In this document: positions 7,644 to 28,210 of the stretch, in pieces | Layout of the letters: every line of letters begins with the position of its first letter | How positions within the stretch are numbered: position 1 is the stretch's first letter | Assembly (NCBI GenBank): GCA_030592015.1 | Contig: JAUUZY010000005.1 | Coordinates: 1-64,000 of the forward strand | From: Candidatus Peregrinibacteria bacterium | GTDB lineage: Bacteria; Patescibacteriota; Gracilibacteria; UBA1369; LOWO2-01-FULL-3 | Direction of reading: 5' to 3' | Length of the DNA: 64,000 nt | The notes under the pieces: model-generated | What the model was told of the DNA's origin: nothing | The model's input: only the letters and a program-made list of their open reading frames with translations | The model's database searches: none | Program-made: the position numbers and the translations under genes

Positions 7644-7741
7644 AAAACTAAATAAAAATCTCCAATACCCTAAGTTCGTTTGCCCACGAACTACAAAGAT
7701 TCGCCCCTCGGGGAGGATCAAAAACCCTAGAAAAGCCCAAA

Positions 7742-7764
7742 AAGAACCTCAAAGCGAGGTTCTT
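7742..7764. terminator. Bidirectional intrinsic terminator between the HTH/zinc-ribbon pair and the giant-protein operon
   Basis: Perfect 9-bp stem AAGAACCTC-AAAGC-GAGGTTCTT, followed by T's on + and preceded by A's (T's on -). Located between converging genes. Confidence 0.85.
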
Positions 7765-7776
7765 TTTATATTTAAA

Positions 7777-8916
7777 CTAGTTTCCTGAGCATTGCCTGTT
7801 ATTCATTGTCTCAACGCAGCTATAAACTTTATTTATAGCTGGGAGTCCATCAACTATGGCACTGTTAAGATTGTCCAATTCGCTAACCATAGCTTCAACC
7901 GTAGCATCACTACCTTCTTTATACAAAGCCTCAAAGCGTGAGTTCATAATTTTCTGCATATTTTCTATTGTATCGTTGAATTCCTCGGATTCAATAGCAC
8001 CCAAAAGCAAGCCATAGGTAGGTCCGGAACTTCCAAACTCAGGGCTATAATATGAAAGATCGTCATATATTTCCTGGTATCCGGTTGCTGCATCCTGATT
8101 GTTTATATTTAGCTGAACTAGGCCATCAAGGAATCCATCAAAGCTAGAATCGGGGAGTGATTCAACTAATTTTTCCACACGACCACCAACTCCTTTTTCA
8201 AGTTTTTCCCAGGCCGGCGCAACTCCACCGGCAGTCTTAATAAATTCATCCCATTTGTCTGAAACTGTCGACCATGAAGAGTTTTCGCAGAAAATATAGC
8301 TCTTTTTCTTGTCCTCGTATTTCAATTCCAACCTATTAAAGAAAACATCAAATTCTGTCTTTGCAAACTGTCCTGAATCCACATATCTCTCTTTCATGTC
8401 AGCATAAATCTTATTTCGAGAAGTAAATAGAGCCTCACCGTCCTCCCCAAATCTATATGTCAAAACATCGTAAGGAAGGTTAACAACAACAGAGCCATCA
8501 ACAATATTTCTCACATAGTACAATTCCGCATTAATCTCGCTGTAAGCCCTTTTCATATTTGGAAGCTTCTGAGTGTTACAAGTCAAAAATGCATCTCTTA
8601 TATACCTCTCTATTTTATCCTGCTGATTTATCAGTGAGATAATGTCATTTGCCTGACATTGGTTTTTGTAGAGTACGTCCTCCCAGATAGCGGTATACCC
8701 TTCAAGGCCATCACTCCAAATTATTGATCGTAGGAACAAAATAAAATCAACATTCCCCTTAGAAATGCAACGCCCAGCACTAAGATCCCCATCAACATTA
8801 GGATCTATATCAGAATTGTCTTGCGCACTTGCCTGCATAGGGGAGACCAGAAGCAGCAATAAAAGCCCTAAGGAAAGGATGATTTTCAAACGAGTTTTTA
8901 GTGATTTATTATGCAT
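7777..8916 (-). CDS. Secreted protein of unknown function (giant-operon gene 5)
   Basis: 379 aa with signal peptide MHNKSLKTRLKIILSLGLLLLLLVSPMQASAQD; 8-nt overlap with the preceding gene; Cys near C-terminus (RQCSGN). Confidence 0.8.
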   Translation of the reverse strand: MHNKSLKTRLKIILSLGLLLLLLVSPMQASAQDNSDIDPNVDGDLSAGRCISKGNVDFILFLRSIIWSDGLEGYTAIWEDVLYKNQCQANDIISLINQQDKIERYIRDAFLTCNTQKLPNMKRAYSEINAELYYVRNIVDGSVVVNLPYDVLTYRFGEDGEALFTSRNKIYADMKERYVDSGQFAKTEFDVFFNRLELKYEDKKKSYIFCENSSWSTVSDKWDEFIKTAGGVAPAWEKLEKGVGGRVEKLVESLPDSSFDGFLDGLVQLNINNQDAATGYQEIYDDLSYYSPEFGSSGPTYGLLLGAIESEEFNDTIENMQKIMNSRFEALYKEGSDATVEAMVSELDNLNSAIVDGLPAINKVYSCVETMNNRQCSGN

Positions 8917-10738
8917 TTGGTTTGTTCTTTATTGCGTTACATTCATTATCAATTAGCTTGTACTGCCTGTTATAACCTTCAAAGAAAATTCTCATTTGTT
9001 TGATTTCAGGCAATGCAGTTTGATTAAATAGTTTTGTATTAGTTCCTTTATTTGATTCTTGTAGATTGGCAGCCTCAAGCAGCGCCTCGTTTCTAGCTTT
9101 ATCCTGAACTCTAGAAACTTCATTAATTATCTCGGCTATGGTTGTTCCCTCAGGAGCTGTAGCCAAGAGGAAGTCAGTTTCGTAGTCCGTAGAGAATGTA
9201 GGTTGTATGCCAATTTGGAGATCAAGAAGCTCTGTATCACCTAAAAATGGTCTATATTTCTCCACAAAACTATTCCATTCCTCAAAAATATTCTTTCCAA
9301 GAATCAAATCATCATTAGGAGGAGTAGGAATAGGAGCAGCTATGGTAATAACCTGTAGATCAGGCATAACAAGGTCAAAGCCCCCCTTACACTTAGCGGA
9401 CTCAAAAATATTCCCGGTAACCTTATTTGGGATAAGAGTATGATTAAGAGTTTTCTTCATAAATTCATTTGTCTTTTCAACTTCGCAAAGTATACAACTG
9501 TCTCCAGGGTTGAAGCTTGAAACAGTCTTCCGAATCAATTCAGTATCCAGACAAATTCCGATCTTCGCTGAGAATCCTGGACCGGCTACACCGGCTGCAG
9601 CACCGGCAGATTGTCCAATCAAAGAGTCGTAGGCATTTCCAAGACTTGAAAATCCGGAACTACCAAAGGTACTATCCGCAGCAGCAGATCCTTCAGCACC
9701 TCCCAACGCAGGACACCATGTGCTACCCCAGTCACCGACCGGAGCAGGGGAGACAGTTCCATCCGCAGCAACTATAGGCTGGGAAACTGATCGCGTCTCA
9801 TCCGTAGCAGGCACTCCGTCGTTATCATCACCATCTTCTACTACAACAGGATCATCAGATTCATCCGCTTCGGCCTCTTTCAAAGCAATTTTATCGGCCT
9901 CATAACTATTTGCAGCTTCAGCAAAAGGATCATCAACAGCACAAACATCAGACTCTAATTTTTCTATATCTCCAATAGCATCAGCAAATTCACTAATTTC
10001 ACTTCCAGCACTATCAATACGAATATCAGTCTCAACATTCCCTTCTTCATCCAGAGGCTGCCTCATGACGGCCACAGGGCCTTCATCAGCGGCATAGTCG
10101 GACCGTTCGACAATTGGATCAGTTGGGATATATGGAGAGCTTAGCTCGCCTCCAAAAGGCTTTCCGACAGTATTGGGAATAACCTCAACAAACAAAATCT
10201 CTTCAATAATTGAAAGATCATGCACAAGATCAAAACCGGAATCAAACAGATCACCGTTAGCAAAAATCTCACTAGGCGCAATAGCGGCATCTATTTCCTG
10301 CTGTAATTCAAAAGTTTCATGAAGGTCTTCAAAATCTTCCTGAAGATTGTTAAACAGAATAAATGCATTCTCCTGAGTCAGGTCTGCAGAGCGAATGTCA
10401 GGATTATTGAAAATCGGAGTAATACTGCCACCTACAACTCTCTCTGCCTCCATATTCGTAAGCCCATACTTCTGCGCAACAAGATCAAGTGCATCATTTT
10501 CCGGAGCCACAAGAAGCTTCCCGTAAACCAACTGGTATAAATCTGTACCTTGCTTTGAAGGAGTGAAAATATCAGTCCATTCAAACAAATTTCCATTGGC
10601 AACGATTTCATCCCAAGTACTTGTCGGATCTTCATCGTTCTCACCATAGGCAACAAGATTTACATCCGCAGCAATCAGCATATAGCTTGCAGCTACTCCG
10701 GCAAATACTCCTATAATGATTGGCAAAAATCTTTTCAT
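8909..10738 (-). CDS. Secreted/membrane-anchored protein of unknown function (giant-operon gene 4)
   Basis: Likely start at MKRFLPIIIGVFAGVAASYMLIAADV (ATG 10738), adjacent to the upstream stop (10740). Gly/Ala/Ser-rich middle; CxxC (DSCILCEVEK). Confidence 0.8.
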   Translation of the reverse strand: MKRFLPIIIGVFAGVAASYMLIAADVNLVAYGENDEDPTSTWDEIVANGNLFEWTDIFTPSKQGTDLYQLVYGKLLVAPENDALDLVAQKYGLTNMEAERVVGGSITPIFNNPDIRSADLTQENAFILFNNLQEDFEDLHETFELQQEIDAAIAPSEIFANGDLFDSGFDLVHDLSIIEEILFVEVIPNTVGKPFGGELSSPYIPTDPIVERSDYAADEGPVAVMRQPLDEEGNVETDIRIDSAGSEISEFADAIGDIEKLESDVCAVDDPFAEAANSYEADKIALKEAEADESDDPVVVEDGDDNDGVPATDETRSVSQPIVAADGTVSPAPVGDWGSTWCPALGGAEGSAAADSTFGSSGFSSLGNAYDSLIGQSAGAAAGVAGPGFSAKIGICLDTELIRKTVSSFNPGDSCILCEVEKTNEFMKKTLNHTLIPNKVTGNIFESAKCKGGFDLVMPDLQVITIAAPIPTPPNDDLILGKNIFEEWNSFVEKYRPFLGDTELLDLQIGIQPTFSTDYETDFLLATAPEGTTIAEIINEVSRVQDKARNEALLEAANLQESNKGTNTKLFNQTALPEIKQMRIFFEGYNRQYKLIDNECNAIKNKPNA

Positions 10739-10739
10739 A

Positions 10740-11378
10740 TTATTCACAATTGACTGTAGTTGCATCGATAAATTTCTCAGGAAGTCTCATGGATTCCCGA
10801 CGAACATCTTTCAAGGCAAGTTTATATTTAACTAAATTATTTATAATTATTTCATATTTCTTATGCATGGGATAAGCCATCCTAAACTCATCATATGCAG
10901 CAATAGTGGCCTCCATCACACGCTTTGCTTCATCTATTTCAGCGACAACTTCTGCATCTATTCTAGTACTTCCCAGCAAAACCTCTGAGATCGTAATTGC
11001 ATCCTTTGAAATTACCGTCAAATCATTCCTCGCTATCTCCAGAGTCTTCAAATAATCTATGTAAATTTCCAGAGCATCCATAGACACACAGTAGGTACTC
11101 ACGTTTTCCGGCGTACATTGCTCTTTTGTATCAGGGGCAAGAAAGTCAGGGTTACTATAGAAGCTAGGTTCCTCCAGCATATCAACCAATAGTTCCAGCT
11201 TGTCATTAAAGAAGTCATTCATTGTTGAATGATAAGTAGTTTTTATATTGTAAAAACCTGCCGTAGGACCATCGAATTCATAGTCACTCAACGCATAAAT
11301 CGTATAGCTGGAGTAGCAAAGTACCAAAGTGGCAATTGCGATGAGAAAGCTGGTTGTTAGGTTTCTAAAAAATTTCAT
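10740..11378 (-). CDS. Secreted protein of unknown function (giant-operon gene 3)
   Basis: 212 aa; N-terminal MKFFRNLTTSFLIAIATLVLCYSSYTIYA; helical, ends ...TVNCE. Confidence 0.78.
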   Translation of the reverse strand: MKFFRNLTTSFLIAIATLVLCYSSYTIYALSDYEFDGPTAGFYNIKTTYHSTMNDFFNDKLELLVDMLEEPSFYSNPDFLAPDTKEQCTPENVSTYCVSMDALEIYIDYLKTLEIARNDLTVISKDAITISEVLLGSTRIDAEVVAEIDEAKRVMEATIAAYDEFRMAYPMHKKYEIIINNLVKYKLALKDVRRESMRLPEKFIDATTVNCE

Positions 11379-11381
11379 AAA

Positions 11382-11978
11382 CTATTGAACACAGTTTTTA
11401 ACAAATTGGGGCAGTCTATTATTGAACGATGCAAAATGCGAAAACATATATGCGATTTGTAGATTCAAATCACTGAGTCGATTATTTATAACTCTACTTT
11501 TTTCCACAAAAATAGTTGCACGTTTCTGAGCACTGGTATTTCGTATATGGTCAATCATCAATTCCTTCTTCACTTCTATATAGGTCTGAGTAAGTTGGGC
11601 ACACTCACTAATTGTAGTGAATTGTTGCGCCAACCCTTCACCTCCAATATCGGGAGTAACCAGCAAAAAAGTATCTTCGATAAGTGTTTTGTATTCTCTG
11701 AATTTAGCGATGGCAATATTTGTAAGGGAAGTATTTGAACTCTTATTATTAAAGTTTTCCTCTAAAAATTTGAAAAATAATTTAGTGTAATCATCATAAA
11801 TTCTCGGCAATATGATTTTGCAATTTGTAGGATTAGCCACAAGATCCTCAACATTCTTTTGAATTACAGGCTTCAGAGCTATCTCTAGATCTATATAAGT
11901 CGATGGCTCATTTGCAGCATAGACAAGTCCCACGTTGGACAATATTAGGATCAAAATTGAGGCCAGTATTTTTTTCAT
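11382..11978 (-). CDS. Secreted protein of unknown function (giant-operon gene 2)
   Basis: 198 aa; signal peptide MKKILASILILILSNVGLVYA; starts 3 nt beyond the giant gene's last base; ends ...VKNCVQ. Confidence 0.78.
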   Translation of the reverse strand: MKKILASILILILSNVGLVYAANEPSTYIDLEIALKPVIQKNVEDLVANPTNCKIILPRIYDDYTKLFFKFLEENFNNKSSNTSLTNIAIAKFREYKTLIEDTFLLVTPDIGGEGLAQQFTTISECAQLTQTYIEVKKELMIDHIRNTSAQKRATIFVEKSRVINNRLSDLNLQIAYMFSHFASFNNRLPQFVKNCVQ

Positions 11979-11980
11979 AA

Positions 11981-14900
11981 TTATTTTTTTACAGTTTCAA
12001 TAGTAACTTCATTACTCTTGGAGAACCAATGTTTCTCATCTTCAGTAGAAATTACACTGAAGAATATGTCTCCCGGAATTATATCAGCTCCATGCAAGAT
12101 GCTTGCAGTACATGGGCAGGTATTGCATTCAGGTGGTACGACATAAACACCACTTTCACCTTCCTGATAAACACCACCATCACTGAAATCATCACTTCCA
12201 TCCAAAGGATCGGTCAAATTCTTATGAACTTCATCCCCGTCATTAACCCCACCACCATCGGTATCGGCAACTGCAGGATTAGTTCCGTAGAGATTTATTT
12301 CTTCAGAGTCGGACAATCCATCGAAGTCTCTATCAGGTGGATCATCAGATGCATCCAGAGGATCAGTTCCATTCCTAACTTCATCCCCATCGTTAACCCC
12401 ACCACCATCGGTATCGGCAATTTCAGGATCAGTTCCATACAGATTCGTTTCCTCAGAGTCGGTCAATCCATCGTCATCAATATCGGATGGATCATCATAT
12501 GCATCCAACGGGTTAGTCCCCAGATCAAGCTCGTCGCCATCATTTGTTCCTCCCTTATCACTGTCAGCATCAGTTGGATCAAGACCATATGAGCATTCAT
12601 CTGTATTGCTCACACCATCGAAATCCACATCTAAATCAGGATTTTGAATATCATATTTCTCCTCACAGAAATCAGACATGCCATCATTGTCATCATCAAT
12701 CTCAAAACAATTATAAGCTTCAAGAACTCTGGTCACCATTGTTACAAGCTCTGCTCGAGTCATCTCCTGTTCAGGATTGGCAGCTTCCTCAGTTGTGATA
12801 ATAAAATTATTCTGCAAAACAGCATTTCCAGTCATATAAGGAGTCAGGTTCTGTCCTGCAAGCATGAACGGATCATACCAAGGATCTCCAACATTTAGTC
12901 CCTCAAGATTAAGCACACCCTTCAGTTCAAGAGCTTCCAATATGATCTTCACAGACTCGGCCCTTGTAATAGTGTTTTCAGGCTTGAAAGGGGATTTGCC
13001 AGTAGCATTGTCTATCTCACCCTGATAACCATGAATAAGACCAAGTAATGAGGCCTCCTTCACAAATGGGTAGTACCAAACAAGGTCAGACTCACTATAT
13101 TGAATATCATTGAATTCAGTCCCAAGCTCATAAGATTCAGGTCTAGGAATAATACAAAGCATCTTTAGCAGAGTTTTTACAAATTCAGCCCTATTCACCA
13201 ACTCCTGCGGATTAAATATAATTCCATCCTCGCTCTCCCGCCCTTCAATAATATCTTTTTTCTGTAACTCTTTGAGAATAGCAGCCAATTCATCATCAAC
13301 ATCAATAAATTCTTTCTTGCTCAAACTAGTCTTCACAAAATCGGAAGATGGAGGAATATGCGCCTGAGCAAACGGCACATCATTCGGTCCAACTATCTTA
13401 ACTCTTCTTTTTCCACTAATAACAGAGACATAAATCTCCGCCACAACTTTTCCATTATATATAAGTTCATAAATCAACGGATCAGCCGTATGATCATTCG
13501 CCTTTTTTATTAGTTCAACCCCATCAGCAAGGAAAATAACATTTCCAGCACTATCAACAATAGCGATCTGCTTCCCTTCAATCACATCCATCAAAGCGGC
13601 AGCACCCGGATAATCCGGATCATCAGCTGCAAATTTCACAAAGCTATATCTATCTGTAATATTTTCATCACTCACATGCACACCAGTCGCCAATTCAAAT
13701 ATATTGTCCTCAAAATCAACTTCTTCCAGCACAACTACATCGGTATTCTGATCTGCAACCACGTGAATAGTCGCATAAACAGTGCCATTCGCATCCACGA
13801 TCTCAATTCTGGTTACAGTCCCGGGAGGATTGGCTTCCTCAACATTTATAAAGTATCCATCCATCAAATTTTCAACATTAGCTGTGTCAGGGTGAATTTC
13901 CGCAATTATTTCTCCGGCAGAATTCTCAACCAAGAGCATATCTCTCACAGAAAGATCATTAACCGTATAAACACCGGTTTCATCACTAAGATATTTTCCG
14001 TTCTCATCACTGGTCATAGTCTCAATCTTTTGGTTTTTCTCTACAGCCTTCAGATCACCGGCCACAACTCTATAAATAAGCCTTTTCCTCATAAGCGTAA
14101 CAGGCATATTAGGCAGAGTTTCACCTGTGGCAATTGAAGTTCTAGCAAGAGTTTCGTCCAATGTGATATTAGGAGCGGAAACATTCACCTTAATCTCCTG
14201 AGCCGAACTATTTCCAGACTGATCCACCACATGTAACAAGAATTTATGCTGACCAATATCTCCCTCATATTCGAATGGTCCAACTCTGAATCTTGGGTTG
14301 CTCCTATCATTTATAGCTATGCCATCACCATCTTCATCATAGGCGTAATTAATATCACTATAGAAAAATTGTCTCAGTTCTGTAGCTCTCTTTCCGTCCG
14401 GATCATAAGGTAAAGTCTCAAGATAGTAGGCAACTATTTCACCTGAACTATCAAAAGAATTACTCGCATCAATTTCCAGCTCCGTGAAAAGCGGAATATC
14501 ATATTCAATCTGACTTACAGCAGGGAATGGGCTGTCATTATCAGAACAGGACTGCGGAGCAATCACATTAGTAAATGAAGGAAGAGATTTCTCTCCATCA
14601 GCATTGATCGCATATATTTTTGGATAATAATTTCCATTTTCCAGCTCGATTGAAATACTTGGATTATTTGGGTCAGCCAGTTCAAGTACAAATGCATTCG
14701 GGAATTCTGCATCAGGATCAGCCACAGCCACATACCTCGCAACTGCAGTATTTTCATTTCCATCAGGAGTGCTGCCAATAAACACTTCATAGGCAACTGC
14801 ATCCTTTTTTGCAATCCAGCTAATATCAACTTTTTTGTGATTCTCAGAAGGTGAGATAACACCCTGCACACTCGCACCTCCATCCACAACATAGTCGCTC

Positions 14901-17900: not shown

Positions 17901-20900
17901 TCATCAAAATCAGTCGGATTAATCCCTCCTGTTCTTTCAGCCTGCTCATCAAACAATTCCTCCAGAGTAGGCTCAGAGCTAACCCTGTTTTCCAGATAAT
18001 TTACCCTTCCATTGGAAACTCCAATGGAATATTCATAAATCAACTCTGCACTTGGATTTATTTCAGGCCTTATCTGAAGATCCAGATAAGGATCATTGTT
18101 GTATGAATGTCCCAAAGCACTAAGGGGATAGTTTGCAAAATCATTACCAATATCAAAGTTCACCTTTGGCATCCGGTCAACGCTGGCAGAATAAGAAATG
18201 GTCCTCTTGCCTCCGGCAGGGACAGTAATACCGGTGATTACAAGTGAACGAGCACTCATCCCGGTTTCAGCCCACTCTAGCTCATCTCTGCAGCCACTAT
18301 CCATGCATTGCAAAGTATCTTCCAAAAGAGTCATGGAAGGAGGACTAACATCAGAGAGCATCATATTCACAATATTAGAGCCACCATTGTTATTCAAAGT
18401 AATAATATATTTTACCCTGTCATCCAATGCGATCACTTCTCCATTCACATCAACAGAACTCTTTGTAGATCTTGAAAATCTCACATCCTGCTTAATGTTT
18501 ATGAAGTCGTAGTTTTTCGGATAAGTCTGTTCAGGGATATCTCCAGTAGCAATATTTTCATTATTTAAAAGGGAATTCTGCAAATCAGTAACTGCATTTG
18601 CATAGCCTTCTACCTCCGCATTACCAACAGGAGGGTCATCACTAGGGAGTGTGAATTGAATAAACTTTCCTGAGTTGTCTTCCACAGTATCAGTATGCTC
18701 GACATCAGAATATTCAGGGATAGTAGAGGAAAGTTGCTCCATTCCAGGATAATTAACAAAAATTGTACTCGAAATATCTACTTCAGGATCAAGCTGGAAT
18801 CCAAAATTCCAAGAATTCCCATGGTTAGTATCGAGCCCGATACAACTATCTCCATCAACTTTGTTATAGAAAATTCGAACGTTCCCAGCCGAATCACTAG
18901 TCACCAGATCCTCACACCCATCCGCATTCATATCTCCGGACTTCATTTCATAAGCCTTCCCGTTAATAGCCAACTCTAGAGATTCCTTTTCAAAACTTCC
19001 ACCTTGATTTATAAACTGACTCATACAAACTTCATCTACATTGCAACTTTCTTTAGTTCCAACTATCAGGTCATCAAATCCATCATTATTCAGATCAATT
19101 TTAGTGGCGGAGAATATTCCATTAGACATTTTTAGAATATATCCCTTGTCCCTAAATCTCTTATTACTAATCTCATTCTCAAGTAGTCTCACAAGCCCAT
19201 CTTCATATAGAAGCAAGAGGTCGTCGCTACCATCACCGTTATAATCAAACTCAATCAACTGTTGTATGGTCTGTTCACCATTAAAGATTGGCTTGCCGAT
19301 ATCTTTTGTATAGCCGGTAAGACCACTCACCAGACCAACCATTCCATCCAATTTTAGACGTATCATAGGATCTCCATAAATGACACCAATCTCTGAAGCA
19401 TATGGAATATGAGATTCTCCAACAGAATTTCCAGCAGAAAAGAAAAGCATATGTTTATTGTCTCCTTCAAATCCCAAACCTGAATTACTACCTACATCCT
19501 CCAGCGAAGTTTGACCAAAGCCGGGAGCACGACCGGCATCAAGACTTGAATTCTTATCAATCAGGTAAACACCATTTGGATTGTCGCTAGAAGTTCTGGA
19601 GAAAGCACTATTAAAGTCAAAATTGTCAGCGGCAGTATTTAATTTTACATAAATACCAGGGAAGAAGCTTGTAGCTTCATCTGCGAAAGGAATTATCTGA
19701 ACAGCATTTTCAAAACTCTGTTTAAAAGTTATAAGAGTCAAGATTTCACCACGATCATATATTGCAAAGGCAAGATCATTACTCTCAAGACCATCGATAT
19801 CCTGCTGTGGGACTCTCATTTCAAGGGATTCATTATTTAGAGTGATTCTTCCAAAGCTATCCACTTTCAGCATCACAGTGCCATTATTTTCAACAAAAAC
19901 CGCATCGTTTCTCTCAACAAATTCAATATTACTATCGCTAAAAGATATTCTCTCAACATATATTCCATCCTCATCTTCGATTTTTTCTTCCTCCTCAAGC
20001 AATACAAGGTCTGTGCCATCACTTGGAACCATAAACATGGAGGCAAGTTCATCACCAAAAACACTATCGTCAAAAATCACTTTTTGATACGGGAACGAAT
20101 CGGTGGATTGAATAACCTGCATACCAACCGTTTCAGACAAAAGATCAATCTTTCCAAAACCATCCACTCCAATGAGCAGCTTGTCCCCCTCAGCAGATGC
20201 TGTGATTGATGAGACAGCCTGAGAGTCACCTGCATGAAGGAAGGTTTCAGCCAGATTATTCTCATCAAACATATTTCCAAAGGCACCACCAAGCAAAGAA
20301 ACATAAAGAGCCCGTGGAGCAAATCCTTCAACATCATCACTATCAAGACGCTTCCTGACATCCAAACTTATCTTGTCACGCATGATCCAATCAGACTCCG
20401 CAACAAGATTGAGTTTTCCACTTATGCCGGATCCCTTAATTGTAGTGGTGGCAATTCCATTGAGAGGGAGCGCAGTCCTAGCTCCGGTAAATTCAATAAA
20501 GTCCTCAGTGGCAGTTGTCGGGAGAAAGCTAATTAGAGTTTCATTATCAGCAACAACCAGATTTCCATATCTATCCAAGATCCTAGCCTCAAGCTGTACA
20601 TCTCCACCACTAGAGAAAACAATATCCTCAGAAGCGCTAAGTTCTATCCTATGAGGCTCGCCAGGCTCAATTTTTATAGTAACGCTATCAGTAGTAAAGC
20701 CAGGGACATCCACAACTATCTCAGCATCACCTGCAAGATTGTTAGGAATAAACACGGCATTTATTTCAGGCAAGGTCCCATCAACCATCTTTTTCTCCAG
20801 TTTTTGAATTGTCTGACCTGATTTTCCCAAAAATCCACCAAGGTTTGGATTAATATTTTCAATCACTATATCCCCACTATATTTATCAACTCTCACTCCA

Positions 20901-23900
20901 TGACTCATAAGATCAGCCCTAATCATTATTGACGAATCAGAACCTGGAATAAGATTTATATCTAAATTTACCTCATCAAGAATATCGAATGTTTCCTGTG
21001 CCACTACATAATCCCTAAAGTCTATTTTGCTCGTATCGTTCCCAGCCTCACTCAGCAAAGTCTCCAATTCATAATCCAGAAGCACAGCAAAGAGCTCAAG
21101 ATTTTCAATAATATCATCTTCAGAAAACAAAACAGTATCAGCAGTACCGGCAAAAGTACCAAGTTGAGTTCCAATCAGAGCGGCATTTATATCGGAGATT
21201 TGATCAAGATGCGCACCTTCTTCCACAAACAAAGCAATTTGTGCAAAAGTATTATCCGCAACATTTCCAAATTCATCCTTCACAATAAGCTTCAAGTCTG
21301 TCTTCGATTGCTCATTGGCAACAAGCACAAGGGAGTCTGCCTTTATCTCTATTTGGCTAGGCTCACCTGCGACAAGGCTCAGTTCACGATCTAATACCGG
21401 ATAAGGCTCACCCACAACCACAGCCCTTAGAGCAAAATCTCCACTTACAGTTCCGGCCCTCAAATAAACAGTAGCCACACCATTCTCACTCTGAACAACC
21501 TGACCATTCTCAAAAACAACAATATCTTCCACATCCGAAATTACAGAGAATTCAACCTGATGAGTTCTACTGTTATCAAATTCTCCCAGATCGTCAAAGA
21601 GATGAACATTAATCATCATAAGAGATTGACCATCAGCAACCATTTCAATATTCGCCTCAAGTTCATATATGCTATCCGGATTTTTCTCAGCATCTATAAA
21701 AGGATTTTCACTATCAGGAATAAGAGCCAACATACTGTCAGAGAAAAGTTCAGCAACCGGCCTAGTTCGACCTATTGATTGTACAGTTGAGTCCAAAAAG
21801 TTTTTCTGGTAATCCTTCCATTGATAATACCTTAGCCAGTTATCCGGAGCTACAGTCTCAACATGCGCATCTTCTTCCTCAGTTACTTCTTCCACGATAT
21901 CCTCAACAATTATTTCTTCTTCAACCGGCTCTTCAAGCACATCCTCAGTTGTTTCATCCAATTCAACAAGCTCTGAGAGAAGTATTATTATATTTCCATC
22001 TTCATCATATTCGACAGCATCACTGCCATCAGTAGCCCCACCACCATCAGTAGCCCTACTACCGTCAGCAATCTCACCACCACCATCGACAACATCGCCA
22101 CCATCAACAACCCCGCTACCATCAGCAACATCGCCACTACCATCGGCAACCTCACCACCACCATCAACAACCTCACCACCATCATCAACATCGCCACCAC
22201 CATCAACAACACCGCTACCATCAACAACTCCATCACCATCAACAACCCCACCACCATCAACAACATCGCCACCACCATCAACAACACCGCTACCATCAAC
22301 AACACCGCTACCATCAACAACTCCATCACCATCAACAACCCCACCACCATCAACAACCCCACCACCATCGACAACTCCACTACCATCGACAACACCGTCA
22401 CCAGCATCAGCAACCCCCAGAACATCTTCAGGCGATACATCACTATCTTTAGTAGCAAGATACTCAGCATAAGGATCAAACCCTAATTCATCGTCAGCAA
22501 CTAATTTATTTATTTTCTCCAAATCATCCTCGTCCAGACCGGCTTCATAAACAGTGAAACTCAAAATCTCCATTTTTCTATTGCTGCTAAGAACCTTCAC
22601 GTTGTTCGATTCAAGCCCGGACTCACTGCCCAGGTAAAGAGTAACCTCTCCGGATTTGTTCGTAGAATTCAAACTAAAACTAGCCTCACCTCCAACAAAA
22701 GTTTTTTGATTCGTATCAATAAATACCAAAACAGGATCATCTTCATCCTGATCAATGGTCAAAGTTAATGCTTCAGTGTTTCCAGTGTGACCTACCAAAT
22801 TTCCGTTTTCATCAATACCTTTTACACTAACTTTAACGGTATCTACACCGTCAGCGGAAAGAATAGGCTTATCAACAGTCAGCTCAAGTTTAGAAACAGG
22901 CAGAGCAGTAATAACTTCAGTATCTTCGGAAAAATCATCCTCAGCAAAAAGTTGGGACGCACCGCAAGACTCCTCAAACTCAAGCCCATCATCCCAGACA
23001 GTTATAAACAAAGGCAGTGCAATAAGTGCCTCGATAAATTCCTGGGTTTCCGTCATGAAATCTCGCAACGGAACAAAATCATCATCGTTTTCATCAGGAC
23101 TAAGTCCCTGGTCCCGCGTTTCTACACCGGAACCTTCACCATCCGCAGAAACATAAATACTCAAAGGATCAAAACTGGCATCCGTTTCCTCAGGAATGTC
23201 TTTGTTGAAATTCATATCGAAATAATCCTTTTCACCATCCAGCACCAGGTACGCAGACTCATAACCGTTTTTCACGCTGTAGCCTGGAGGGGCAGGTCGC
23301 ATAGTTGAATCAACAACAAAGGAAGTTTCATCCGGAGCAGGATTCAGATATTTCCTTAGAACATAATCATGCTTATCATCGATATTTAAATTCAGCCATC
23401 CAATAGCATCATGTAATTTTAGTGTAGAAGCAGTCTCAAGATTAAAGCCACTAATAGGAACATCAACTTGAGATCTGGTAATTATAGAAAAATAATTATT
23501 AATAATTTCATCACGAATATCTCTATAGTCACCTGGACGAACATCAGGATTTGGAATCGTATGACTTCCTGGCATCAAAGCTATACGCCAAGCAAGAGCA
23601 TCCAGATCTGCCTCCAATTGCGACAAATTCTCAACTCTAAATGAATTTGGGAAAATAACTTTTTCAGTATTACCCGGATAATAGTGCGGAGTGGTTCGAA
23701 GACTGCCAACGATAGCTTGAACATCAATAGAGTCATTTATAGGGCGAGGATCGGGATAGTCCATAGGGTGTTCAGGATCAGACGTCGGTGGCAACGGCTG
23801 TGCCTGGAAGGCTAGGTATCTAGGACTATCAATAGGCAAACTAAACGAAGCCATCGATTTTATCTGCTGAGAAATTGTATAGTCGGTCGGTTCATTATGA

Positions 23901-26900
23901 TAAACAAGACTGGAGATATCTTTGTAGAGATCAGGTTCAACCTTCAAAGTGATATCGGAATCAAAAGAAGTTAATTGATGTGGAATAGTATAAGTAGATT
24001 CATGGGACAAAAGTTTTCTGGCAATCTCATCCATATTTTGACTTGGAATTCCATATTGAATATCGGCCTCATCAAAGTCATACCATTTTGTTTCATAGAC
24101 TCCATCCTCATTTGTGTCACGCCATTCATAGTCCACGATCCCATTAGCATTGTTGTCTATTCCATCAAAAAGTCCATAACGATCAGAAAACTCCTTCAAG
24201 CTAACAAGCTCACCATCACTAGCATTTAGAACAACATCACTAGCATTGTATTCATCCAAACTGAGCCAAACATCCTCAATGTCAGGAGAAACATCAGCAT
24301 CAGCTGCATTCGGAACAGGCTGAGTAATAAACTTTCCAACAGCTTTCAGATATCGCCCATACAAATCAATTGAAATATTGTATCCCTCAAAATCAACATC
24401 GACAAGGGGACCAAAATCAAACTCGCTAGGCGGATTCAGCGGGTAGTCATAGTAATTCGAATCACTGGCAAGGCTTCCAACAGAAGGAAGACCCGAGTAG
24501 CAAGAATCAAAATAAACATCATCAATATCTTCATAGCTATACTCATCCGGGAATTGGAAAAGATCCATATGGTCATCGTAGTCAGCAGGGTTAGACGAAT
24601 TCTGATTGCCTTCCTTTTTTACATTTTCAGGAAATTTTAATTGGAACTCATCTTCACCGGGAATCTCTACCTTCAAAGGTGCAACACTTCCAGCAGGGTC
24701 GGCTATAGGCATAGAAGCAAGCTTTGGGAAACAGCGATCACTATTTTTCCCAGCAGAATTTTGAGAACAACCGGCATAACTGTCATAGCCCTTATTCCCA
24801 TATCCTCCACGCTCACTACCGGCTTGACGCATATCATTGATAGTGAAAATCGCACCATCACTACCGGACCTAAAGCTAAAGAAACGATCATCCTGAAAGT
24901 CAAATCCTTCAGGATATCCAATATCTGAGAGAAGAATAAATACTCTAGGTGCATTATTCATAAATCCGGAACCAATTGCTCCTTCGGCAGAAGTTAGTCC
25001 ACTCTTATTCAAAGTAAAACTAAAGTTATCTTCCATCAGCTCTCCATCCCTATAGAATTCAATTCCAATATTGGCTTTGGTAGAATTTATATCTCCATTT
25101 TCCAAAGCTGCCATTTTTGATTCACCTACAGGAACACCAAACATTGGACCTTCAGCATCCATACTTACTTCATAGGCAAGATCGGGAATACTGCTCAATT
25201 GATCGTTGTTAACCGCAGATATAAACCTCTGAACATCTCTATATGACCTTTCAATCGCCTGATCAAACGACCATCGATAATCAATCGTTCTATTATTTAC
25301 ACGCACAATCAGGTCACCCTCTTGCAATATTCCCTCAAGTGGATTGCTATAATTAGCATAAAGATGATTATGGGTAAAAGCCGGAACTCCACGATTAAGA
25401 TCATTTTCAATATAAGCACCGGGAACAGACAGACCTGTAAGCTCATGAGCCTCACTTGCAGAAATTACTCGGGTATTCACTCCGCTAGTATGCACAGGCA
25501 TAGAAGTGGAAATGTTATCAGTCCTAAGGGCACGAGTAAGAATAGAATACTCACCATCAACCGCAATTGGGTTGAAATCAAGATTTTCATCGAAATATTC
25601 AGACTTGGTCGAACCAAGGAACACACTACATTGCTTTGGATTTTCCAGAAGCTCAGCATCAATTCCGTTTATGTAGAATTTCCCATTAGCCTCATTAAGA
25701 TAATGGAATCTATAGTCAGTCTGGAACACAAGAGGAATAGGGGAGATGTCATCAGACGCAAAATTAATGACAAAATCATCACTATCTCCAAAGTATCCGG
25801 ATATCCTGGAAGACTCCAAAATAGGCAAAGGCTCATCAATAAGATCGATAATTTCCATAACTTTTTTCTCCACAGCAGTATTTACTTCCTTCAAGTATTT
25901 CTTGGAGAATTCGTCCTTGATAGTTATAAGAACGGCAATATTGTCCATATCATCAGGAGTATAACGACCGGTATTTTCCGCCCAATCATTCGACTGCGCC
26001 ACATACTTACTAAAAATTTCATAATACGTAAGAAGAGACTGTTCTATAATTGTCTTAGTGAATACATCCGGAACACTGGCAAGCGCATCGTCACTTTGAA
26101 ACGATCCCAAAAACTCGGCAGCATCCTCACTTGGAGGATCAATTGCCACCTCACTTGCAATATCCCCAATCAACTGCTTCGCCCAAAACTTGTTGTATCT
26201 GTTGTAGGCAAGGTGCTCAATATTATCTAAGTACTCTATATAGTGAGAATAAACATCAGGATTTATTTTTTCCTCCTCATGAAGAAGGTCAGCAAAGAAC
26301 ATTTTCTTCTCAAATTCCGCAAAATCAGGATGCCCTTCATAGTAGAGGTGATTCTTATCAAAAAATGTAGCCAATTTCTCTTTTCCTTCCCTATCTTCAG
26401 AAGGAGCCCTGATTATTCCATGCCAAATCTCAGGCTTAGGGAAGTTACTATCAAAATTCCTCTCAAACGATTCCGATTCAGAACTATATAGATAAGCCTT
26501 GTCATCAAAGTCAGTATAAGGAAATAGGCTAATAAACTTATTCCCATCTTTATTTACAACAGGCATAGGAATATCACCCACCAATACAACCCCAGCCAGT
26601 CGATTATTCCCGTTGCCATCACCATTCTGGTAAAGGTTCTCCAATGCATTTGCTAAGTCCACCACAGAGTCTTCTTCCTTGTCATAAAAAATGATCTTCG
26701 CATCGGTGAGGTCATAATTTGAACTTATATCATCAGCATATCTCAAAATCCTTGCACCAAGTGTAGGGGCATCCAAGGAAGAATATTCATTCCCAAGCCC
26801 CACATAAGAACTGTCCCCAAGGCTATTGTCTACCACTATTGCAACCAGGTCATATACTATATCCGGATCATTTGGAGACTGAGCTTGAGCAACAGCAGCT

Positions 26901-27019
26901 TCCACATCTCTATTAAATGAAAAAGCATATGCAACAGGTAAAGGTACTGTTCCTGTAACAAGCATCATTAATACGAGAATTGAAGGGACGATTTTTCGCT
27001 GTATAAAGCTAAATTTCAT
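11981..27019 (-). CDS. Giant multidomain secreted surface protein (~5,012 aa) with peptidase-C25/caspase-like N-terminal region, repeat tracts, SLH and TSP3-like repeats
   Basis: Single uninterrupted ORF. Likely start at MKFSFIQRKIVPSILVLMMLVTGTVPLPVAYA (ATG 27019), 22 codons inside the ORF-track start. Domain evidence is given in separate entries. Confidence 0.9.
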   Translation of the reverse strand: MKFSFIQRKIVPSILVLMMLVTGTVPLPVAYAFSFNRDVEAAVAQAQSPNDPDIVYDLVAIVVDNSLGDSSYVGLGNEYSSLDAPTLGARILRYADDISSNYDLTDAKIIFYDKEEDSVVDLANALENLYQNGDGNGNNRLAGVVLVGDIPMPVVNKDGNKFISLFPYTDFDDKAYLYSSESESFERNFDSNFPKPEIWHGIIRAPSEDREGKEKLATFFDKNHLYYEGHPDFAEFEKKMFFADLLHEEEKINPDVYSHYIEYLDNIEHLAYNRYNKFWAKQLIGDIASEVAIDPPSEDAAEFLGSFQSDDALASVPDVFTKTIIEQSLLTYYEIFSKYVAQSNDWAENTGRYTPDDMDNIAVLITIKDEFSKKYLKEVNTAVEKKVMEIIDLIDEPLPILESSRISGYFGDSDDFVINFASDDISPIPLVFQTDYRFHYLNEANGKFYINGIDAELLENPKQCSVFLGSTKSEYFDENLDFNPIAVDGEYSILTRALRTDNISTSMPVHTSGVNTRVISASEAHELTGLSVPGAYIENDLNRGVPAFTHNHLYANYSNPLEGILQEGDLIVRVNNRTIDYRWSFDQAIERSYRDVQRFISAVNNDQLSSIPDLAYEVSMDAEGPMFGVPVGESKMAALENGDINSTKANIGIEFYRDGELMEDNFSFTLNKSGLTSAEGAIGSGFMNNAPRVFILLSDIGYPEGFDFQDDRFFSFRSGSDGAIFTINDMRQAGSERGGYGNKGYDSYAGCSQNSAGKNSDRCFPKLASMPIADPAGSVAPLKVEIPGEDEFQLKFPENVKKEGNQNSSNPADYDDHMDLFQFPDEYSYEDIDDVYFDSCYSGLPSVGSLASDSNYYDYPLNPPSEFDFGPLVDVDFEGYNISIDLYGRYLKAVGKFITQPVPNAADADVSPDIEDVWLSLDEYNASDVVLNASDGELVSLKEFSDRYGLFDGIDNNANGIVDYEWRDTNEDGVYETKWYDFDEADIQYGIPSQNMDEIARKLLSHESTYTIPHQLTSFDSDITLKVEPDLYKDISSLVYHNEPTDYTISQQIKSMASFSLPIDSPRYLAFQAQPLPPTSDPEHPMDYPDPRPINDSIDVQAIVGSLRTTPHYYPGNTEKVIFPNSFRVENLSQLEADLDALAWRIALMPGSHTIPNPDVRPGDYRDIRDEIINNYFSIITRSQVDVPISGFNLETASTLKLHDAIGWLNLNIDDKHDYVLRKYLNPAPDETSFVVDSTMRPAPPGYSVKNGYESAYLVLDGEKDYFDMNFNKDIPEETDASFDPLSIYVSADGEGSGVETRDQGLSPDENDDDFVPLRDFMTETQEFIEALIALPLFITVWDDGLEFEESCGASQLFAEDDFSEDTEVITALPVSKLELTVDKPILSADGVDTVKVSVKGIDENGNLVGHTGNTEALTLTIDQDEDDPVLVFIDTNQKTFVGGEASFSLNSTNKSGEVTLYLGSESGLESNNVKVLSSNRKMEILSFTVYEAGLDEDDLEKINKLVADDELGFDPYAEYLATKDSDVSPEDVLGVADAGDGVVDGSGVVDGGGVVDGGGVVDGDGVVDGSGVVDGSGVVDGGGDVVDGGGVVDGDGVVDGSGVVDGGGDVDDGGEVVDGGGEVADGSGDVADGSGVVDGGDVVDGGGEIADGSRATDGGGATDGSDAVEYDEDGNIIILLSELVELDETTEDVLEEPVEEEIIVEDIVEEVTEEEDAHVETVAPDNWLRYYQWKDYQKNFLDSTVQSIGRTRPVAELFSDSMLALIPDSENPFIDAEKNPDSIYELEANIEMVADGQSLMMINVHLFDDLGEFDNSRTHQVEFSVISDVEDIVVFENGQVVQSENGVATVYLRAGTVSGDFALRAVVVGEPYPVLDRELSLVAGEPSQIEIKADSLVLVANEQSKTDLKLIVKDEFGNVADNTFAQIALFVEEGAHLDQISDINAALIGTQLGTFAGTADTVLFSEDDIIENLELFAVLLDYELETLLSEAGNDTSKIDFRDYVVAQETFDILDEVNLDINLIPGSDSSIMIRADLMSHGVRVDKYSGDIVIENINPNLGGFLGKSGQTIQKLEKKMVDGTLPEINAVFIPNNLAGDAEIVVDVPGFTTDSVTIKIEPGEPHRIELSASEDIVFSSGGDVQLEARILDRYGNLVVADNETLISFLPTTATEDFIEFTGARTALPLNGIATTTIKGSGISGKLNLVAESDWIMRDKISLDVRKRLDSDDVEGFAPRALYVSLLGGAFGNMFDENNLAETFLHAGDSQAVSSITASAEGDKLLIGVDGFGKIDLLSETVGMQVIQSTDSFPYQKVIFDDSVFGDELASMFMVPSDGTDLVLLEEEEKIEDEDGIYVERISFSDSNIEFVERNDAVFVENNGTVMLKVDSFGRITLNNESLEMRVPQQDIDGLESNDLAFAIYDRGEILTLITFKQSFENAVQIIPFADEATSFFPGIYVKLNTAADNFDFNSAFSRTSSDNPNGVYLIDKNSSLDAGRAPGFGQTSLEDVGSNSGLGFEGDNKHMLFFSAGNSVGESHIPYASEIGVIYGDPMIRLKLDGMVGLVSGLTGYTKDIGKPIFNGEQTIQQLIEFDYNGDGSDDLLLLYEDGLVRLLENEISNKRFRDKGYILKMSNGIFSATKIDLNNDGFDDLIVGTKESCNVDEVCMSQFINQGGSFEKESLELAINGKAYEMKSGDMNADGCEDLVTSDSAGNVRIFYNKVDGDSCIGLDTNHGNSWNFGFQLDPEVDISSTIFVNYPGMEQLSSTIPEYSDVEHTDTVEDNSGKFIQFTLPSDDPPVGNAEVEGYANAVTDLQNSLLNNENIATGDIPEQTYPKNYDFINIKQDVRFSRSTKSSVDVNGEVIALDDRVKYIITLNNNGGSNIVNMMLSDVSPPSMTLLEDTLQCMDSGCRDELEWAETGMSARSLVITGITVPAGGKRTISYSASVDRMPKVNFDIGNDFANYPLSALGHSYNNDPYLDLQIRPEINPSAELIYEYSIGVSNGRVNYLENRVSSEPTLEELFDEQAERTGGINPTDFDDVDPNSEEFQDRMSALMASQNADSDYDGSVDSWDDALGEYQDLSESIANGIKNVSTLLRCSGGGCLPIPYNRAFLAPDGPIPGIAAIAIGTPNPPYVMPFYPSNLTSSVRWYISPTLTGGLGTAICAGPNIGHMSPCYAAAVPVQAAGVCPDLLGPVNDAVAKAKSSNSNPDVGMSTIVSDGENSAGSDAINTSSNYSDPDSPLSYSSAVNIRIPGFPSVITNWLDNQTDEIFNKLLDLPDLYFIYPDVNSLISDHAVSLKNFDKNRGGFLSVHDFLRAVNSMPLFQIEGKEVFIRVPAISQAEVEKWKRQAVLWIEYEQEQIQKIEDYWTCNISEERRTLCDAVTLDMTELIKSVRAAMDKIDQISRLPKDILTWRNLEAKYATQLICYMDAIMNYTGGYISRQQKTIESWMRAIEDVIRTIRDWKLLLDLIVDYQVNCDQCKNDRFSKLGILLSFFAAIPDPPIIPMPKWPDIVFDISQVKAGIKIVWPDLVFKPEPIRLPDLPTITLPEISPELRLVVPGFDLPDWLDFPTFTLPDLPDLPPLPLPQLPDLPRPPKIPQLPDVIGDLIVNLKPIFAVLCLLKKGLIPVPEWGLATEIETLTQPSVQVVLPLIKNLGVQMPEIQYDYVEQIKITTKLDMGIETDFIYVILKNGADKFNEKVMDLVENVNTVSGKSWQKVLDDAVDTAFKKATETAIDVAVPLLEGVVDPITSPIEDAAEEVGADISGDAGAYLPPEIAKVEGYFNNINQSLNDYVDNMEQIDYPDTYYLTATQEYLDPSDPILNRTLAEVEADILLQDLPDTPEMRHMAELRDSLIAYTKGLDESNTVLGEIEDYNEFGRILVDNDQSVRQIVALSTSKMYEPVSTETTVESSFFGEAVEERLRDVSGVSDLDTSNLLAANIDFDVDDYLESDEAATVPVPIGFFVAVGNGSENVLNYTSELENEIHTLFNDVDGDSDFDIIFSMGGDVYLKENHTNEVDYPKGNLIGGISGGFGNNSVSDYVVDGGASVQGVISPSENHKKVDISWIAKKDAVAYEVFIGSTPDGNENTAVARYVAVADPDAEFPNAFVLELADPNNPSISIELENGNYYPKIYAINADGEKSLPSFTNVIAPQSCSDNDSPFPAVSQIEYDIPLFTELEIDASNSFDSSGEIVAYYLETLPYDPDGKRATELRQFFYSDINYAYDEDGDGIAINDRSNPRFRVGPFEYEGDIGQHKFLLHVVDQSGNSSAQEIKVNVSAPNITLDETLARTSIATGETLPNMPVTLMRKRLIYRVVAGDLKAVEKNQKIETMTSDENGKYLSDETGVYTVNDLSVRDMLLVENSAGEIIAEIHPDTANVENLMDGYFINVEEANPPGTVTRIEIVDANGTVYATIHVVADQNTDVVVLEEVDFEDNIFELATGVHVSDENITDRYSFVKFAADDPDYPGAAALMDVIEGKQIAIVDSAGNVIFLADGVELIKKANDHTADPLIYELIYNGKVVAEIYVSVISGKRRVKIVGPNDVPFAQAHIPPSSDFVKTSLSKKEFIDVDDELAAILKELQKKDIIEGRESEDGIIFNPQELVNRAEFVKTLLKMLCIIPRPESYELGTEFNDIQYSESDLVWYYPFVKEASLLGLIHGYQGEIDNATGKSPFKPENTITRAESVKIILEALELKGVLNLEGLNVGDPWYDPFMLAGQNLTPYMTGNAVLQNNFIITTEEAANPEQEMTRAELVTMVTRVLEAYNCFEIDDDNDGMSDFCEEKYDIQNPDLDVDFDGVSNTDECSYGLDPTDADSDKGGTNDGDELDLGTNPLDAYDDPSDIDDDGLTDSEETNLYGTDPEIADTDGGGVNDGDEVRNGTDPLDASDDPPDRDFDGLSDSEEINLYGTNPAVADTDGGGVNDGDEVHKNLTDPLDGSDDFSDGGVYQEGESGVYVVPPECNTCPCTASILHGADIIPGDIFFSVISTEDEKHWFSKSNEVTIETVKK
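12180..12705 (-). other. Thrombospondin type 3-like Ca-binding repeats at the C-terminus of the giant protein
   Basis: DDDNDGMSDFCEE, DVDFDGVSNTDEC, DIDDDGLTDSEE, DRDFDGLSDSEE and DTDGGGVNDGDEV repeats. Confidence 0.85.
12705..13350 (-). other. S-layer homology (SLH) domains of the giant protein
   Basis: Successive units: FIDVDDELAAILKELQKKDIIEG..NRAEFVKTLLKM; FNDIQ..YPFVKEASLLGLIHGYQG..TRAESVKIILEAL; VGDPWYDPFM..TRAELVTMVTRVL. Confidence 0.85.
16190..16520 (-). other. Pro/Leu/Asp-rich (LPDLPxLP) tract of the giant protein
   Basis: LPDLPTITLPEISPEL..FDLPDWLDFPTFTLPDLPDLPPLPLPQLPDLPRPPKIPQLPDV. Confidence 0.85.
18860..19260 (-). other. FG-GAP/VCBS-like repeat units of the giant protein
   Basis: YNGDGSDDLLLLYEDGLVRLL, LNNDGFDDLIVGTKES, MNADGCEDLVTSDSAGNVRIFYN. 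Confidence 0.75.
22016..22410 (-). repeat. 18-bp/6-aa VVDGxG tandem repeat tract in the giant protein
   Basis: About 20 imperfect units of VVDG[GSD]G, e.g. GVVDGGGVVDGDGVVDGSGVVDGSG, visible as accaccaccatcaacaac on the + strand. Confidence 0.92.
24488..24526 (-). other. Caspase/metacaspase-like DSCYSG motif in the giant protein
   Basis: Reverse complement reads DDVYFDSCYSGLPS: hydrophobic strand + D-x-C-x-S-G. Confidence 0.45.
26335..26862 (-). other. Peptidase C25 (gingipain)-like N-terminal region of the giant protein
   Basis: YDLVAIVVDNS..RLAGVVLVGDIPMPVV..FPYTDFDDKAYLYS..IWHGIIRAPSEDREGKEKLATFFDKNHLYYEG resembles the LLVGD..YAD..GRFxA..Y order of C25 domains. Confidence 0.5.
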
Positions 27020-27026
27020 AGGTATG

Positions 27027-27057
27027 ACTTGGAAGGTGAGGACACAATTTTCCAAGT
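27027..27057 (-). promoter_or_regulatory. 8-bp perfect inverted repeat in the predicted 5' leader of the giant-operon mRNA
   Basis: ACTTGGAA (27027-27034) and TTCCAAGT (27050-27057), 15-nt loop, between the predicted -10 and the start codon. Confidence 0.6.
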
Positions 27058-27061
27058 ATAA

Positions 27062-27070
27062 ATTATAGCA
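27062..27070 (-). promoter_or_regulatory. Predicted extended -10 element for the giant-protein operon
   Basis: Minus strand TGC-TATAAT; no good -35. Implies a short leader to ATG 27019. Confidence 0.45.
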
Positions 27071-27190: not shown

Positions 27191-27673
27191 TTATCTAACA
27201 AGCACACCATAACACCAAGAGTTCTCATTGTTTTCGATAGGAGTGCCCATAGAACCCTCAGCTATATCACCACAATTTCCATTAGCAGACCCAAAAATCT
27301 CAACATTTACTCTAATAGAGAAAGAATAGTTGTTACCAGGGTTAGAAACATATTTGTAATCATGTCCACTAGGATCCATAGGAATTTTCCCACCAAAATC
27401 AGAAAGGAAAGCCTCTCCCCAAGAGCCAGGTTCAGAGGCCGGCCAACCTGTATTCATATCTGGGCTGATCTTTCCAGATGCATTTGGGAAAGCATCATCA
27501 GTCTCTAGACCATAGTTCAATAAAACCATTTGAATTTTTTGTAGGTCAGAAATTCTCTGAGCATCACGTCCTTTAGCAGGAGCTCTAAGCAAGGTAGGAA
27601 GAAAAGCCACAGCCAAAATACCAATGATGGTAATAACTATAAGTAGTTCGATGAGTGTAAAACCTTTTTTCAT
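27191..27673 (-). CDS. Type IV pilin-like protein (paralog 1)
   Basis: KKGFTLIELLIVITIIGILAVAFLPTLLRAPAKGRDAQRISDLQKIQ; class III signal and hydrophobic helix. Confidence 0.93.
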   Translation of the reverse strand: MKKGFTLIELLIVITIIGILAVAFLPTLLRAPAKGRDAQRISDLQKIQMVLLNYGLETDDAFPNASGKISPDMNTGWPASEPGSWGEAFLSDFGGKIPMDPSGHDYKYVSNPGNNYSFSIRVNVEIFGSANGNCGDIAEGSMGTPIENNENSWCYGVLVR

Positions 27674-27688
27674 TTTAAAGTATTAAAA

Positions 27689-28177
27689 TTATTTAACAAA
27701 AACTGCATAACACCAAGTCGCCGAGTCAGAAGAATTCTGAGTGCCCAAAACACCTCCAGATACAGAGCCACAATTTGCATTTGCATTTTCAAAAATCTCA
27801 ACAGCCCCGGTTATGGCAAGGGAATATTTTCCTGAACCAGGCGAATTAACATAGTAATAAGATGATCCATCTGGTTTAGTAGGGATTGCACCTCCAAAAT
27901 CACTAGAAAATGCACCAGCCCAATCATCAGCAGGGGCTCCAAATCCGGTTGCAAGCCCCGGAGTTATCACTCCTGTAGTAGGATATCCAGATCCATTTTC
28001 GAGGTTATAATTAATAAGTACTTTTTGAATCTTTTGAACATCAGCCATTACTTGCGTATCTCGCCCCTTTACAGGTGCCCCAAGCAAAGTAGGAAGGAAG
28101 GCCACAGCCAAAATTCCAATGATAGTAATGACAATAAGCAGTTCGATAAGGGTAAAACCTTTTTTGGATTTAAACAT
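27689..28177 (-). CDS. Type IV pilin-like protein (paralog 2)
   Basis: SKKGFTLIELLIVITIIGILAVAFLPTLLGAPVKGRDTQVMADVQKIQ. Confidence 0.93.
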   Translation of the reverse strand: MFKSKKGFTLIELLIVITIIGILAVAFLPTLLGAPVKGRDTQVMADVQKIQKVLINYNLENGSGYPTTGVITPGLATGFGAPADDWAGAFSSDFGGAIPTKPDGSSYYYVNSPGSGKYSLAITGAVEIFENANANCGSVSGGVLGTQNSSDSATWCYAVFVK

Positions 28178-28210
28178 TTTTAATAGGAGTTAGTTTGAGT
28201 TTTCTACGAT

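Follow-up and report, generated by a model that had tools for sequence, protein, structure and literature searches.

How bacteria of the class Gracilibacteria, a large group with few cultured representatives, hold and exploit other cells is an open question, and the literature names long surface proteins genome by genome. Those class members that are in culture fasten onto other bacteria and consume them, and very large surface proteins of the cultured Absconditabacteria have been linked to host contact (PMC8080830, PMC13059738). The existence of giant surface proteins in these bacteria is already known. Here we analyze a stretch of 64,000 nt (hereafter the window; contig JAUUZY010000005.1, positions 1 to 64,000) from a Candidatus Peregrinibacteria bacterium, a tiny cell that probably lives attached to a host, in which such a giant protein is encoded together with four exported partners, designated P2, P3, P4 and P5. 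What emerges is a single unit that most of the class shares and in which a core and four partners stay the same, and the question thereby becomes testable on five named genes in the few cultured members.

The five-gene unit within and beyond its order

On the minus strand of the window, five consecutive open reading frames (ORFs) encode the giant protein and P2 to P5 (Table 1). They follow one another with gaps of 2, 3 and 1 nt and then an 8-nt overlap between P4 and P5, exactly as an earlier note on this DNA had read them, and each of the five proteins begins with the hydrophobic signal or anchor segment that the note described (judged by eye). The mechanically called ORF of the giant opens at TTG 27085, upstream of a promoter-like element, and ATG 27019 is its likely start. 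P4 is best started at 10738, since Met10 of the longer ORF hardly varies in the alignment of homologues, and this start yields the 1-nt gap of the note; the alternative first ATG at 10765 would give a 26-nt overlap with the preceding gene.

The boundaries proposed for the unit fared unevenly. The extended -10 element recurs: in the 80-nt stretches before the giant's start, 13 of 21 genomes score 7 or 8 of a possible 8 against TGnTATAAT, a score that a shuffled stretch typically reaches in 0-20% of trials, and among the genomes with no strong match some had the start of the giant wrongly chosen. The hairpin 3' of P5, described in the note as a strong terminator, is the strongest of three terminator-like sites where 3.2 are expected; it is not significant as a count and is a plausible terminator. 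The locus does not end at 27070: a block of type IV pilus (T4P) genes (27191-33615) adjoins it upstream in the same orientation, with no terminator-like site called between that block and the giant, so that the transcript may begin farther upstream. Promoter motif and hairpin are only consistent with a single transcript.

The N-terminal third of the giant has homologues in 53 of 60 relatives and in all 40 of the most complete ones, the named matches being mostly metagenome bins of Peregrinibacteria, Peribacteria, Gracilibacteria and Absconditabacterales. The N-terminal domain also occurs in records titled Nitrospirota and Euryarchaeota (L096, L154), probably mis-binned contigs. In the taxonomic order to which the window belongs, all 20 genomes with usable contigs have the genes giant-P2-P3-P4-P5 in the same order and on the same strand, with short or overlapping spacings (P2 is assigned by position only in L038 and L039, and the contig of L025 ends within P5). 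Unrelated neighbors are kept within the order as well: uvrA in 17/20 genomes, a small helix-turn-helix (HTH) gene in 18/20, and rplL in 11/16 upstream flanks. Because of this background, synteny within the order alone proves little, either for P2 to P5 or for the T4P block, and the stronger test lies outside the order. The window also carries two PrsW-family intramembrane proteases (2942-3874 and 51778-52683), the former of which is frequently kept close to the unit in genomes of the order.

Outside the order (families bear anonymous labels, f17 to f179), none of uvrA, prsW, recF, thrS, rplL, rplJ, pilB or pilC is found near the unit, and the sole neighbor from the window that is matched is the small HTH gene, in two loci. 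The five-gene unit nevertheless persists in f20, f21, f167 and f175. The arrangement giant-P2-P3-P4 followed by a P5 slot is seen in two genomes of f20 (G413, G472), two of f21 (G422, G441) and one of f175 (G440), while the f167 genome G432 has giant-slot-P3-P4-slot. G457 of f17 has giant-P3-P4-slot, and G436 of f171 has P2-P3-P4-P5 contiguous on one contig and the giant on another. The linkage of the unit thus exceeds the background conservation of its neighbors, and this persistence with changed surroundings is the best argument for a tie among the five genes, an argument that does not cover the T4P block. The earlier note had made its fixed multi-gene unit depend on synteny in relatives, and the gene order is indeed kept in 20/20 relatives of the same order and in other families. 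In four f17 loci (L252, L255, L256, L178), a P3-P4 pair lies apart from the giant; a CsaB-like gene lies a few kb upstream of the pair in the last three, and a glycosyltransferase gene is also upstream in L255 and L178 (both by eye from N-termini).

Across the class, the core profile described below matches 90/118 genomes, including lineages that have recoded TGA, and the N-terminal domain is found in 214/292. P3 has matches in 65/118 genomes of the class; recoded families are among them, and there it often sits at another place. In the rest of the phylum, the core gives five weak, partial matches (E-values 1e-4 to 8e-3), none of them convincing. Those Patescibacteria that can be manipulated genetically belong to other classes and do not have the unit. 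The recoded giants (loci L170-L177 and L239-L245), 4,000-4,351 amino acids long under code 25, have the homologous modules gN, gMid, gFG, core and gC in order, and in the recoded family f170 P3 and P4 still adjoin the giant. The exported proteins beside the f170 giant were tested as P2 or P5, which was not supported. Near the recoded giant of G549 and G653 there is a set of exported proteins of 121-150 amino acids with a glycosyltransferase, and in G433 (f168) a frame of 7,874 amino acids, open over C6:102600-126210, includes both the N-terminal domain and the core.

Modules of the giant protein and its short form

In the Pfam search the giant has an S-layer homology (SLH) match above threshold (PF00395, 2.8e-06, 27.6 bits against a cut-off of 20.8) and a TSP3 match (7.5e-11), the two repeat types that the earlier note had recognized from the letters. 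Further matches are to Invasin_D3/Big_1-type immunoglobulin-like (Ig) domains, FG-GAP and DUF11. Modules of the Ig, FG-GAP and DUF11 types are characteristic of stalks that serve adhesion. Homologues in 20 relatives measure 3,921-5,617 amino acids, and an alignment of 21 giants shows the highest conservation at residues 50-400, 2500-2720, 3080-3700 and 4600-4780. The order of modules is constant wherever they are found (29 giants, 8 from lineages reading TGA as glycine); rows flagged as exceptions are extra partial matches of the C-terminal profile, and the middle of L077 is masked. The Ig, FG-GAP and DUF11 modules vary more than the conserved set made up of the core and P2 to P5. The giant also contains an 18-bp tandem array encoding VVDGGG/VVDGSG, likely a linker whose length differs from strain to strain, and a 150-bp direct repeat (1.9 copies, 85% match) over the TSP3 region.

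For P2 to P5, no family in Pfam, NCBIfam, PHROGs or PADLOC scores above its cut-off, which bears out the remark that they fit no recognized family. A sequence search of PDB with profiles of the core, the N-terminal domain, P4 and P5 gave nothing meaningful, and the viral contigs searched gave no matches. The P5 match in PDB at 0.0015 is to a four-helix bundle protein. The predicted structure of the core is of fair quality (predicted local distance difference test, pLDDT, 76.1; predicted template modeling score, pTM, 0.48) and has a beta region, long helices (among them a 73-residue helix, residues 329-401 of the modeled segment) and a long beta-hairpin. Fold searches with it found no match (best E-value 1.1 in PDB and 0.44 in BFVD), which suggests that the core may adopt a new fold. 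The N-terminal domain gave a poor, low-confidence alpha/beta model (pLDDT 56.6) with no significant Foldseek match (best E-value 0.07).

The earlier note had allowed for a role in processing, and the order of sequence elements in the N-terminal domain resembles that of C25 peptidases by eye. The DSCYSG and VHTSG motifs and a strand reading VVLVGD had suggested a C25/caspase-like peptidase that processes surface or host proteins, and RgpB is at rank 22 of the Foldseek matches to that poor model. Its E-value, however, is 0.33, no Pfam peptidase match rises beyond chance in 21 members, and the motifs are not conserved, DSCYSG of the window included. No invariant His accompanies the invariant C419, C706 and C718. 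This lack of a conserved catalytic pair in the domain disfavors a processing role, and we regard the peptidase idea as very improbable.

Gigantism is not a fixed feature of the unit. In the distant family f18, where the profile of the N-terminal domain has no match, weak core matches fall in open frames of about 960-1,370 amino acids, so that the first gene of the unit encodes only about 1,000 amino acids. The core gene is followed by four exported genes that commonly overlap by about 4 nt (L246, L249, L250, L251; in L247 the second slot is not called). Comparison of the f18 slots with the class profiles by hhalign (the slot profiles leave out P2 to P5 of G358, L248) gives five diagonal matches and at most 8.3% off the diagonal. 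The f18 core matches the class core with a probability of 99.45% (E-value 4.9e-22), slot 2 matches P2 at 88.6%, slot 3 matches P3 at 95.9% and slot 5 matches P5 at 89.8%; slot 4 is taken up below. From this clean diagonal, all five genes were probably present, in order, in the ancestor of these families. We favor an ancestral unit of a core protein and four exported partners, with gigantism added around the core, and a later extension of protein 1 from a short form rather than a shortening in f18. The unit bears on the origin of giant proteins because forms of about 1,000 and of 4,000-5,800 amino acids fill the same slot.

Anchoring at the cell surface, also proposed in the note, is supported by the SLH repeats together with a CsaB-type pyruvyl transferase (PF04230) in 19/21 genomes and 11/11 of the best (2.7e-46 in G000); with SLH and CsaB both present, the giant of this order probably sits on the wall. 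Two other S-layer-type proteins are encoded in the window: one at 38056-39555 has SLH domains above the Pfam cut-off, and one at 43205-44527 has only a weak SLH-type match in NCBIfam. The core, P4 and P5 have conserved cysteines and the window's own genome has a VKOR gene, which suggests that the exported proteins may be held by disulfides.

Table 1. The five-gene unit, its signals, the modules of the giant protein and the T4P genes upstream, in window coordinates
Feature	Position	Strand	Remarks
Giant exported protein, gene 1	11981-27019	-	5,012 amino acids; ATG 27019
P2, exported, gene 2	11382-11978	-	198 amino acids
P3, exported, gene 3	10740-11378	-	212 amino acids
P4, exported, gene 4	8909-10738	-	609 amino acids; conserved CxxC and other Cys
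P5, exported, gene 5	7777-8916	-	379 amino acids; conserved Cys
Extended -10, TGCTATAAT	27062-27070	-	42 nt before the giant's ATG
Intrinsic-terminator-like hairpin	7738-7768	-	3' of P5; 14 pairs, 4 GC
N-terminal domain	25742-26881	-	residues 47-426; low-confidence alpha/beta model
Conserved middle module	23159-24019	-	residues 1001-1287; alignment of giants
Ig-like domain (GH2_C5 / Big_1 match)	22598-22888	-	residues 1378-1474; Pfam
18-bp tandem array, VVDGGG-type repeats	22026-22403	-	DNA repeat search
Invasin_D3-like Ig domains	21146-21646	-	residues 1792-1958; Pfam
FG-GAP propeller-type repeats	18860-19582	-	residues 2480-2720; Pfam and alignment
DUF11 domain	18140-18469	-	residues 2851-2960; Pfam
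Class-wide core	15920-17782	-	residues 3080-3700; conserved Cys, long helices, LPxLP stretch
SLH region	12650-13252	-	residues 4590-4790; Pfam and alignment
TSP3 calcium-type repeats	12227-12507	-	Pfam; 150-bp DNA repeat
Type IV pilin gene	27191-27673	-	directly upstream of giant
Type IV pilin gene	27689-28177	-	directly upstream of giant
Type IV pilin gene	28310-28810	-	directly upstream of giant
PilC/GspF	28874-30133	-	T4P platform
PilB/GspE ATPase	30135-31655	-	T4P platform
PilO-like	31656-32294	-	T4P platform
PilN-like	32311-33615	-	T4P platform

A proposed surface complex and its alternatives

It is tempting to hypothesize that the five genes encode one envelope-associated surface complex, exported through Sec and anchored to the wall, for attachment. 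We hold this with about even confidence; complex, topology and attachment are all inferred. What leads us to attachment is the way of life of the cultured class members, which fasten onto other bacteria and consume them, and the role in host contact proposed for their long proteins. All five proteins would leave through Sec, as their N-terminal segments suggest. The core, with its disulfide-prone cysteines, long helices and proline-rich stretch, and P2 to P5 probably act together because they are the conserved set, and P2 to P5, mostly helical and with conserved cysteines, may serve to hold the core or to assemble it. Protein 1 would in most lineages have grown on both sides of the core into a fibre of 4,000-5,800 amino acids: on one side are the N-terminal alpha/beta domain, the Ig-like rods, the FG-GAP region and DUF11, and on the other, in this order of bacteria, the C-terminal SLH repeats would fix it to a wall polymer. 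Its exposed part would most likely make contact with other cells, which would match the episymbiotic or predatory life of the cultured members.

Several observations weigh against this proposal. Partners in f17 are often elsewhere than the giant, and no unit was found in f19. In two recoded families, f174 and f179, the homologue of P3 occupies a locus other than that of the giant, and P2, P4 and P5 are not recognized near the giant. The f18 slot 4 matches P4 with a probability of only 50% (E-value 1.6e-4). SLH is undetected in the f18 core proteins and in the two recoded giants scanned, so that wall anchoring by SLH is not universal. A broader form of the proposal goes further: a class-defining machine of at least five exported proteins with a new-fold core, inherited from the shared ancestor of Gracilibacteria, Peregrinibacteria and Absconditabacteria, would serve host contact or feeding, with the giants as later extensions of the core. 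We put this forward tentatively, as a possibility falling short of even confidence. The earlier reading of the unit as a whole is supported; it overlooked the T4P platform upstream, the reach across the class and the inconstancy of gigantism.

The main rival makes the giant the tip adhesin and priming complex of a dedicated T4P, resembling PilY1, which with P2 to P5 would cap the filament built by the upstream block. We keep it because Saccharibacteria bind hosts by a second T4P that lacks pilT and has a propeller-bearing adhesin (PMC12206443). The compact T4P set of the window likewise contains no pilT, and within the order the block lies directly upstream wherever the flank reaches (PilB and PilC in 15/16, a pilin in 16/16). 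In f171, PilC and a pilin are upstream of the giant, and in f174 the isolated P3 gene has a PilB-type ATPase a few kb away and, in one genome, also a pilin. The association of the T4P with the unit is nonetheless limited to the order and f171; the other families that keep the unit have no T4P gene near it, and inside the order uvrA and rplL are conserved almost as well. Neighbor control and absence elsewhere thus weaken the linkage as a proof of pilus function, and a functional link of the platform to the unit is unproven. The giant matches FG-GAP in Pfam and no PilC/PilY1 beta-propeller domain, the partners carry no prepilin motif, the giant has its own conserved promoter motif, and SLH points to the wall rather than to a pilus tip. 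A T4P role for the unit therefore appears unlikely to us. In the genome from which the window comes there are eight matches of T2SSE type, of which the weakest falls under the cut-off, and hence several sets of T4P or type II secretion system genes.

A single-copy protein that is near-universal in the class, with C-terminal SLH repeats and CsaB present, might alternatively be the main coat or S-layer-like protein, with P2 to P5 as factors of assembly and wall coupling and adhesion as a secondary role; the f18 unit beside MurG- and MurB-like genes and the f17 partners beside CsaB-like genes (by eye, N-termini) fit such a coat. Yet just one SLH stretch passes the Pfam threshold, none was detected in the f18 cores and recoded giants scanned, other SLH-type proteins are encoded in the window, and an S-layer protein is as a rule much shorter and has a variable sequence. 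We consider a coat role rather improbable, and slightly more so a transfer or uptake device, in which the core helices and hairpin would form with P2 to P5 an envelope conduit for host material and the giant would be a docking arm. The core, not the adhesive modules, is the most conserved part, it persists in f18 with no giant extensions, and its model, with the 73-residue helix and long hairpin, could be read as such a conduit; class members feed on other cells (PMC8080830). Against such a putative channel stand the core's want of a fold match of any kind in PDB or BFVD, the moderate confidence of its model, and a unit that encodes no ATPase.

Comparison with described systems

We found no description of the conserved core, the four partners or the class-wide unit in the openly licensed literature searched, as far as its available text goes. 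The attachment complex that we propose comes closest to the giant membrane proteins of Vampirococcus lugosii and other Absconditicoccaceae, which are likewise very large, at the surface, furnished with DUF11 or integrin-type domains, and from episymbiotic or predatory members of the same class (PMC8080830, PMC13059738). Their longest protein, of 4,163 amino acids, is probably a member of the giant family, judging from its size and domains only. In the accessible text, they are described as a list of long proteins, with no partners, common core or class-wide gene order reported. Candidatus Peribacter, of a related lineage, has large extracellular proteins that are exported, in some cases cysteine-rich or with FG-GAP, and proposed for attachment (PMC4736985). 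In contrast to the unit, those proteins are cysteine-rich and many lie in a 14-gene cluster, and the part of the report available does not describe a five-gene unit.

The PilY1 tip complex and the second T4P of Saccharibacteria with PilX2 share with our locus an exported propeller-type protein near PilB and PilC genes that lack pilT, with a proposed role in host binding (PMC12206443). The giant differs in having no PilY1 domain or prepilin-like partners, in being several times larger, and in a linkage confined to the order and f171. Surface proteins anchored by SLH with the help of CsaB resemble it in the C-terminal SLH repeats and the PF04230 protein of the genome. The likeness does not reach to the cores of f18 or to the pair of recoded giants scanned, in which SLH is undetected; the constant part of this system is the core with P2 to P5.

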